From assembly GCA_029260215.1 (NCBI GenBank), contig JAJDDQ010000003.1, positions 1 to 36,672 of the forward strand: a DNA stretch of 36,672 nt, read 5' to 3'. The stretch's first letter is position 1; each line of letters begins with the position of its first letter. A program made the translations under genes and the position numbers. This DNA comes from Phycisphaerae bacterium. GTDB lineage: Bacteria; Planctomycetota; Phycisphaerae; UBA1845. Positions 3,396 to 4,759 of the stretch are shown piece after piece. The notes under the pieces are model-generated. The model searched no databases. It had not been told where the DNA came from and saw only the letters and a program-made list of their open reading frames with translations.

Positions 3396-3522
3396 GCGCG
3401 GTTTGTCGGGGCATGGTCGTGGGAGAGTGCGATTTCTTGGCTTAGACGCGCTTCAATTTTGATGCCCCGTCCGTTAGGGTGGTGCGGTACTTGGGGCTAA
3501 CCAGAAAGGAATTCGTGAGACT

Positions 3523-4566
3523 ATGTTGAGGATCGATTTTCGTAACGGCGTTGTTGCTTTGGCCGTCGTCGCGCTGTTGTGCGCGCACGATCGCGCCGGG
3601 GCGGAACCGGAACATCCCAAAGACGCGGCGCATTCCGGTGCGGGCGTGGCGGCGCTGGTCGAGGGAAAGGCGATCACCATCGCTGAAGTCGATGCGATCG
3701 CGCTCGGGAAGAACATGAAGCTTGCTCAAACCGTGTATGACGCTCGCTCGACGGCGTTGAATCAGATCATCATGCAGCGACTTCTTTCGCAAGAGGCTGC
3801 CGACGCGGGGATCACAGCCGAAGCGATGCTGACGAAGCGGCTGGCTGACGAGGCCGCGCCGGTGACCGACGAAGAAGTTGAAGCGTTTTTCAACGCCAAC
3901 AGTGCTCGAATGCGCGGCCAGAAGCTTGAGGCTGTTTCTGCGCAGATTCGTCAATTCCTCGCATCGCAGCGCACGGCTGAGGCGCGCAAGAATCTGCTGG
4001 CCAAGCTCAAGCAGGACAAGGACATTCGTCTTAAGCTGGACCCGCCGCGTGCTGAAGTGCTGGTCGCAGCCGATGCGCGCATGATGGGTCCGGCGGACGC
4101 CAAGATCACGATCGTCGAGTTTTCGGACTTTCAGTGACCGTACTGCACCAGAGTCGGTCCGACTCTCAAGAAGATTCGTGAAACGTACGGCGACAAAGTC
4201 AGAATCATTTTCCGCGACTTTCCTCTGGGCAACCACGCCCGTGCCCTGCCCGCCGCCTCGGCTGCCTTGTGTGCGAAGGAGCACGACAAGTTCTGGGAAT
4301 ACCACGACAAGATTTTCGAAAATCAGCGCAAACTCGGCGATGATGACCTGAAACGCTACGCTACCGAAATCGGACTCGATGCGGAGAAGTTCAACGAATG
4401 CTTCGATGCGGGCAAGTACAACGCCCAAGTTACGCAGGATGCGCGTGACGGTGCGGGGCTTGGTGTTACGGGTACGCCGGCGTTTTTCATCAACGGGCGA
4501 TTCCTCTCCGGGGCGCAGCCGTTCGAGGCTTTTGAGAAGATTATTGAGGACGAACTAAGCCGCTGA
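3523..4566 (+). CDS. Secreted DsbA-family thiol oxidoreductase with selenocysteine (UGA at 4135-4137)
   Basis: Read through one TGA, the frame gives 347 residues. Residues 1-27 form a signal peptide (hydrophobic VVALAVVALLC, then AGAEP). About 40-165 resemble the helical N-terminal segment of SurA/PpiC-type proteins. From about 180 a DsbA/thioredoxin-4 domain begins: ITIVEFSDFQ, then TGA at codon 205, then PYC. The family motif is FxDFxCPYC, so TGA replaces exactly the attacking first cysteine (Sec205-Pro-Tyr-Cys208). The next 142 codons stay open and are normal for the family (RIIFRDFPLGNHARALPAA, cis-proline loop GVTGTPAFFING with Pro319). A hairpin at 4150-4166 has the place and loop of a bacterial SECIS element. 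Role, inferred: extracytoplasmic thiol-disulfide or peroxide chemistry. Alternatives are a nonsense mutation or a base error; the exact position plus hairpin make these less likely. Ordinary annotation would split it into 3523-4137 and a fragment from 4267. selA, selB, selC and selD are not in the window. Confidence 0.85.
4150..4166 (+). promoter_or_regulatory. Candidate bacterial SECIS hairpin
   Basis: AGAGUC (4150-4155) and GACUCU (4161-4166) form six perfect pairs around the loop GGUCC, whose first G and last C could add a seventh. The loop starts 18 bases after the UGA. As I remember the published bacterial model, the apical loop lies roughly 16-37 bases after UGA and carries G in its first two positions; E. 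coli fdhF has GGUCU. This hairpin meets both. It would recruit SelB with Sec-tRNA. Confidence 0.75.
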
Positions 4567-4683
4567 TAGCGGACGCGTGTCGCTCGAATTCGACAAGGGC
4601 GGCGTTCGATCTGTTACAGCGATTGCGACGCGCATCGGCCGATATTCCTCGGTTTCCAAGCCGTGGGAATCGCGGCCGTTGCG

Positions 4684-4712: not shown

Positions 4713-4759
4713 CGGCTGCGTGGTCGGGAAAAACAAGGGCGAACAGCGGGACAGGCATT

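Follow-up and report, generated by a model that had tools for sequence, protein, structure and literature searches.

Does an open reading frame of a Phycisphaerae bacterium that is broken by a single UGA encode a selenoprotein, or is it a damaged gene? The frame lies on the forward strand at positions 3523-4566 of the window, as we call the whole stretch of 36,672 nucleotides that was analysed. We conclude that the frame is very probably an authentic gene for a selenoprotein. With a probability of about 92%, judged from sequence comparison, the UGA would be read as selenocysteine (Sec) in a two-domain, exported DsbA-like selenoprotein, with a hairpin behind the codon acting as the SECIS element.

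The reading frame and codon 205

Translated, positions 3523-4566 yield 204 sense codons, then the TGA (4135-4137), 142 further sense codons and the final TGA at 4564-4566. The first-pass annotation of this DNA had described a frame of 347 codons interrupted in frame by the TGA at 4135-4137 only, and the translation bears this out. Of 20000 mononucleotide shuffles, 68 kept the run of 142 codons open, and homology is the better evidence for the frame than this statistic. Two Pfam profiles span codon 205, Thioredoxin_4 (PF13462; 124.9 bits, residues 186-343, cut-off 23.2) and DSBA (PF01323; 102.2 bits, residues 196-341, cut-off 25.6). The TGA aligns with the first active-site Cys of the homologues, i.e. 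it takes the place of the nucleophilic Cys of the DsbA motif, as the annotation had proposed, and the motif reads UPYC. It had further claimed that family sequence is kept after the TGA up to the cis-proline loop. Both profiles indeed continue beyond this loop, and the TP of the loop is invariant in all nine aligned proteins, as are Cys250, Cys293 and Cys208 (TGC, 4144-4146), the resolving cysteine of the motif. Pro319 (CCG, 4477-4479), invariant as well, is the expected cis-proline (GTPAFF); its cis geometry is presumed from what is usual in the thioredoxin fold.

A likely ribosome-binding site, AAAGGA, is found at 3505-3510 on the same strand and precedes the ATG in six of the seven Sec orthologues, from which its function is deduced. 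The N-terminus looks like a signal peptide (residues 1-27, 3523-3603, with the cleavage point guessed by eye), and residues 1-39 have a pLDDT below 50 in the structure model; export of the protein is therefore probable, as judged by eye from this sequence. At the gene end the TGA is directly followed by TAG (4564-4569); a double stop of this kind would be fitting for an organism that decodes UGA. Two upstream frames were named by eye: at 202-1227 an ArsR-type regulator seems to be joined to a methyltransferase, and 1154-2569 resembles an S-adenosylhomocysteinase. Rfam and ARAGORN gave no match across the window. Around the seven orthologous loci, one of them on a contig of no more than 5.9 kb, the available stretches show no conserved partner gene apart from the gene and, in two genomes, its tandem copy.

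A full-length orthologue is present in seven genomes (the own genome, G002, G012, G013, G016, G024 and G032) from six genera of one planctomycete family, although some DsbA-type match is found in 59 of 60 genomes, the own one included. In all seven, a copy is interrupted by a single TGA, and the codon affected is always the same; stops at other places in homologues, which the annotation had named as speaking against its reading, were not encountered in these orthologues. An order-level search (114 genomes, E up to 1e-60) recovered the identical seven genomes. In a phylum-wide draw of 392 genomes (E up to 1e-40) twelve had a match, among them the own genome, which was the only one with a TGA; most of the other matches either belong to frames of greater length, about 470-560 aa, or are confined to the DsbA domain.

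The idea that a sequencing error or a recently arisen nonsense mutation produced the TGA, and that the gene is a pseudogene or two fragments, can practically be dismissed. The assembly is a draft of 88 contigs in which no tRNA-Sec was found, which would speak for such a defect, but the TGA is common to seven genomes assembled separately, and for this reason we reject it. Selection is moreover stronger after the TGA than before it: at non-synonymous sites the window gene differs from its six orthologues by 0.30-0.36 ahead of the TGA and by 0.18-0.26 behind it, with the lower value behind it in all six comparisons (synonymous sites are near saturation), and codons behind the TGA are frozen, as described below.

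Two of the seven genomes, G012 and G013, harbour a second, adjacent copy with the motif CPFC and TGC at the position of codon 205 (L053:5196-6221 and L054:6757-7767, beside the Sec gene). The alignment at codon 205 thus gives TGA in 7/7 full-length orthologue genomes and Cys in the two tandem copies, so that comparison of these sequences establishes the frame as well as the exchange of Sec and Cys. A tree was computed from 103 DsbA domains, after removal of three rows from records L062 and L063, which duplicate G002 and G013. In it the Cys copies of G012 and G013 each have the Sec copy from the same genome as their sister, with support values of 100/98 and 100/99. The simplest reading is therefore that the gene was duplicated locally and that Sec then changed to Cys, on two occasions. 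Support is weaker for the branch joining the nine planctomycete rows (93/39, bootstrap not settled).

The hairpin behind the UGA and the Sec machinery

Counted from the U of the UGA, positions 16-22 pair with positions 26-32 in all nine distinct Sec domains, with 7 bp in six and 6 bp in three of them. In the window this hairpin, the likely SECIS element, lies at 4150-4166, and GGT at 4156-4158 begins its apical part. GGU occupies positions 22-24 in 9/9 Sec domains and is extended to GGUC in six, the window included. Across the nine domains 60 of the 63 cells of the pairing scheme are paired, versus 16-54% for versions slid along the sequence. The GGU loop starts 18 nt past the UGA, which equals the spacing of GGUC in fdhF of E. 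coli; the fdhF element shares the GGU-initial loop, has a different stem sequence and carries a bulged U. The legend of Fig. 2 in PMC13188914 describes a bSECIS model with a loop of 3-9 nt, a stem of 4-16 bp, a G in the first two loop positions, a distance of 16-37 nt from the UGA and an MFE of -7.5 or lower. The window hairpin lies within these constraints as they are worded there, either as a 3-nt loop on a stem of 6-7 bp or with a 5-nt loop GGUNC, 18-19 nt from the UGA.

The folding energy of the 21-nt piece is -7.8 kcal/mol in the window and -9.6 to -10.5 kcal/mol in the six orthologues. The window stretch is no more stable than its shuffles (z -0.6 to -1.2), and the hairpin is part of the best fold at lengths of 41, 56 and 81 nt while a competing structure wins at 45-46 nt. 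Taken alone, the window copy is statistically unremarkable; what is remarkable is the conservation across the Sec domains. The third pair is A-U in the window and G-C in the other eight, a single double-sided change that 62 of 500 shuffles also reached, and covariation was dropped as a proof of the hairpin because there is too little variation.

The freezing of codons is stronger evidence for the hairpin than window folding or the pair change. Among the seven orthologues 53 four- or six-fold codons encode an invariant amino acid, and only four of them are fully identical. Three of these four stand at +1 (CCG), +6 (GTC) and +7 (GGT) from the UGA, the last two inside the hairpin and the first ahead of it, whereas +5, +9 and +10 vary. 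Synonymous draws that fold equally well make up 0.6-4.7% for the six orthologues and 10% for the window, compared with 70% for one Cys copy and 34% for the other. The Cys copy of G012 has kept the peptide SRVGPTLK with different codons, and only a 4-bp remnant of the hairpin is left. RVG follows the motif in 9/9 Sec domains and in 4 of 94 Cys domains (duplicates removed). The block of UGA and hairpin was not found in viral contigs.

The own genome encodes SelA (460.7 bits), an adjoining SelB (658 aa, 376.5 bits) and SelD (363.9 bits). Near the start of SelD proteins an active-site residue is either Cys or Sec, and the selD gene has one in-frame TGA there (L013:1531-1533), so that it probably encodes a selenoprotein itself. 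SelA was detected in 26 of 27 family genomes, picked from 36, and 20 of the picked genomes have SelA without the Sec-DsbA gene. The exception is G002, which lacks a SelA match and yet has the TGA gene and a tRNA-Sec.

A check of the Sec machinery had been suggested by the annotation; selA, selB and selD were found, but selC, the gene of tRNA-Sec, was not found in the draft genome. Six of the seven genomes with the gene match a tRNA-Sec pattern, and ARAGORN calls all six tRNA-SeC; the one missing is the own genome, where none of three tRNA-Sec patterns matched. Rfam model RF01852 gave nine matches there, all below the cut-off (150 of 889 candidates scored), eight of which are Ser, Leu, Cys, Tyr or Arg tRNAs according to ARAGORN. 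A model built from the tRNA-Sec of the six relatives, with 150 of 1184 candidates scored, gave one match, which coincides with a tRNA-Ser. ARAGORN found only a tRNA-Leu on the contig with selA and selB (C37) and at the selD locus, and no syntenic place for selC was located. This is the main gap in the case. The assembly has an estimated completeness of 97.1%, and an assembly gap is a plausible guess for the missing tRNA.

The missing selC could also mean that there is no dedicated Sec insertion at this gene and that the UGA is decoded as another amino acid, is read through leakily or mainly ends a protein of 204 residues. The gene's own end points in the same direction, as UGA, backed by UAG, also serves as a stop there. 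Yet the codon sits exactly at the position of the active-site Cys, which the tandem copies do carry, selA, selB and selD are present in the genome, and the hairpin follows at the spacing of fdhF; we therefore regard such decoding as very improbable. For the preferred reading, Sec in UPYC of a probably exported DsbA-like protein, the orthologues, the Cys/Sec exchange, the conserved hairpin and the presence of selA, selB and selD, all established by comparison, agree with the annotation's proposal. We infer that SelB carrying Sec-tRNA would bind the hairpin at 4150-4166, whereby the UGA at 4135-4137 would be decoded as selenocysteine.

The two domains of the predicted protein

From the single gene one two-domain, exported selenoprotein would be made. 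The DsbA-like thioredoxin domain covers residues 186-343 (4078-4551), as delimited by Pfam and structure superposition, and has the marks of the DsbA superfamily, a U-x-x-C motif in place of C-x-x-C and the TP of the cis-proline loop. An AlphaFold2 model computed from nine sequences reached a mean pLDDT of 81.3 and a pTM of 0.66. Its C-terminal half superposes on BdbD of B. subtilis with Z 22.1 (rmsd 2.0, 171 residues aligned) and on ScsC and corynebacterial DsbA/TsdA with Z of about 20. These proteins have the DsbA fold in common with the window protein but possess Cys instead of Sec and other N-terminal parts. NCBIfam NF041057, the Rcas_1661 family of thioredoxin-like (seleno)lipoproteins, matches the C-terminal domain (E 4.7e-35, residues 185-343); its 121.3 bits remain far below the cut-off of 190 and the N-terminal domain is left unmatched. 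After export Sec205 would attack and Cys208 would resolve in a DsbA-like thiol-disulfide exchange.

The N-terminal domain (residues 40-182, 3640-4068) is mostly helical in the model and weakly resembles SurA and PrsA. It had been labelled a SurA N-terminal segment. SurA-type matches do occur, but for the window protein all of them stay below threshold: PF13623, which has a cut-off of 28.5, reaches 20.1 bits with the whole protein and 21.3 bits with residues 40-182. Five of nine members match SurA_N_2 and three SurA_N_3 (E up to 0.01). Rotamase families were found neither in the window protein (E up to 0.001) nor in its N-terminal piece (E up to 0.01), and two of the nine members match Rotamase_2 weakly (best E 0.0036). 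With the isolated N-terminal model Foldseek ranks SurA first, at a best E of 0.51 and with nothing at E up to 0.001. The first ten rows after re-alignment are all SurA, PrsA, PEB4 or PPIase entries; the best structural match (Z 7.0, rmsd 3.5, 78 residues aligned) is in a range that unrelated folds also reach, and the comparison of this domain with the PDB gave no significant match.

We prefer to see in this domain a putative chaperone-like arm, which would probably bind or position client proteins; this reading leans on the structure model and on family matches. It is quite conceivable, if somewhat less probable, that the protein is a selenoprotein whose N-terminal domain is only a helical spacer or an oligomerisation arm without a chaperone part of the SurA type. 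The sub-threshold Pfam scores, the poor Foldseek E-value and a Z-score within the range of unrelated folds all fit such a spacer, and among the DsbA-fold matches are the DsbA-like proteins ScsC and BcfH with N-terminal arms, both of which are trimeric. Against it stand the uniform character of the ten best re-aligned rows and the SurA_N_2 and SurA_N_3 matches of several members.

Relatives in other phyla and a possible role

The annotation had called the protein a new type of selenoprotein. This is too strong, because DsbA-like selenoproteins with a UxxC motif are already published and the full-length architecture occurs with Cys in several phyla. Such proteins are listed in parts of PMC1794560, PMC2398784 (a GOS survey with 63 selenoproteins, among them 'DsbA 1'), PMC9312934 and PMC13188914. 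PMC4807772 reports selenoproteins of planctomycetes; its main text does not contain 'Dsb'. The published DsbA-like and DsbG-like selenoproteins, as described in those parts of the four papers, likewise have a DSBA or Thioredoxin_4 domain with Sec first in the active-site motif; the window protein differs by an additional N-terminal domain of about 140 residues, and no such fusion appears there. The main text of PMC13188914 does not contain 'SurA', and titles and abstracts of the open-access literature yielded no SurA-like Sec-DsbA fusion, though a description in print may exist. It seems that the two-domain version of Sec-DsbA, with its extra N-terminal domain and its occurrence in one planctomycete family, is undescribed.

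The idea that the architecture itself is peculiar to this lineage did not hold. A scan of genome contigs confirmed at least 576 stretches, and among the best 80 of these, which were analysed, many Cys loci from Acidobacteriota, Myxococcota, Bdellovibrionota and others could be aligned over most of their length, with CPxC, i.e. Cys for Sec, at the same site; seven of the 80 had no match to the active-site motif. The scan is biased against Sec forms because a Cys was obligatory in one of the two peptide patterns that it used.

One locus from Baikal assigned to Myxococcales (L122) encodes two DsbA-like domains, each with UPFC and an in-frame TGA (4097-4099 and 4727-4729 of that locus), and judged from its sequence the protein is a probable double selenoprotein. 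Both domains show the same hairpin block after UPFC as the window gene. In the tree the two stand apart, both from the planctomycete rows and from each other, and five changes of the Sec state are needed. Separate gains of Sec, or transfer of a short block between domains, would fit this tree.

Could the gene product serve the cell envelope as its general disulfide oxidase, or is it instead an isomerase, reductase or repair enzyme with a specialised task? The DsbA fold and a UPYC motif close to that of oxidising DsbA proteins would agree with this. A VKOR protein, however, is present in all 17 family genomes tested, ten of which lack the Sec-DsbA gene, so that general disulfide formation is probably independent of it; the VKOR frame of the own genome also holds a DsbA-like match, and most family genomes do without the Sec gene. 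We consider a general oxidase unlikely. The enzyme may oxidise, isomerise or reduce, and a Sec-type DsbA joined to a client-binding arm would suit the repair, isomerisation or reduction of exported proteins.

Conventional gene calling, which takes UGA as a stop, turns the gene into frames of 204 and 99 residues, and genes of this kind are presumably easily missed. In two genomes Sec and Cys copies adjoin, and the Cys copy has an altered hairpin or none, which represents a natural experiment. A few codon choices past the active site suffice for the hairpin, which suggests a reason for the recurrence of Sec in DsbA-like domains. As a tentative and rather doubtful extension, the protein might be a selenium-dependent foldase composed of a chaperone-like arm and a Sec-type DsbA, which in species with a tandem Sec/Cys pair could switch with the selenium supply, and Sec might arise repeatedly because the RVxPTLK segment that this family has behind the active site becomes a SECIS hairpin when x is Gly (GGU) and a few codons fit. 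Such a route would explain the nearly identical hairpin blocks of the planctomycete and myxobacterial proteins in spite of their separate places in the tree.
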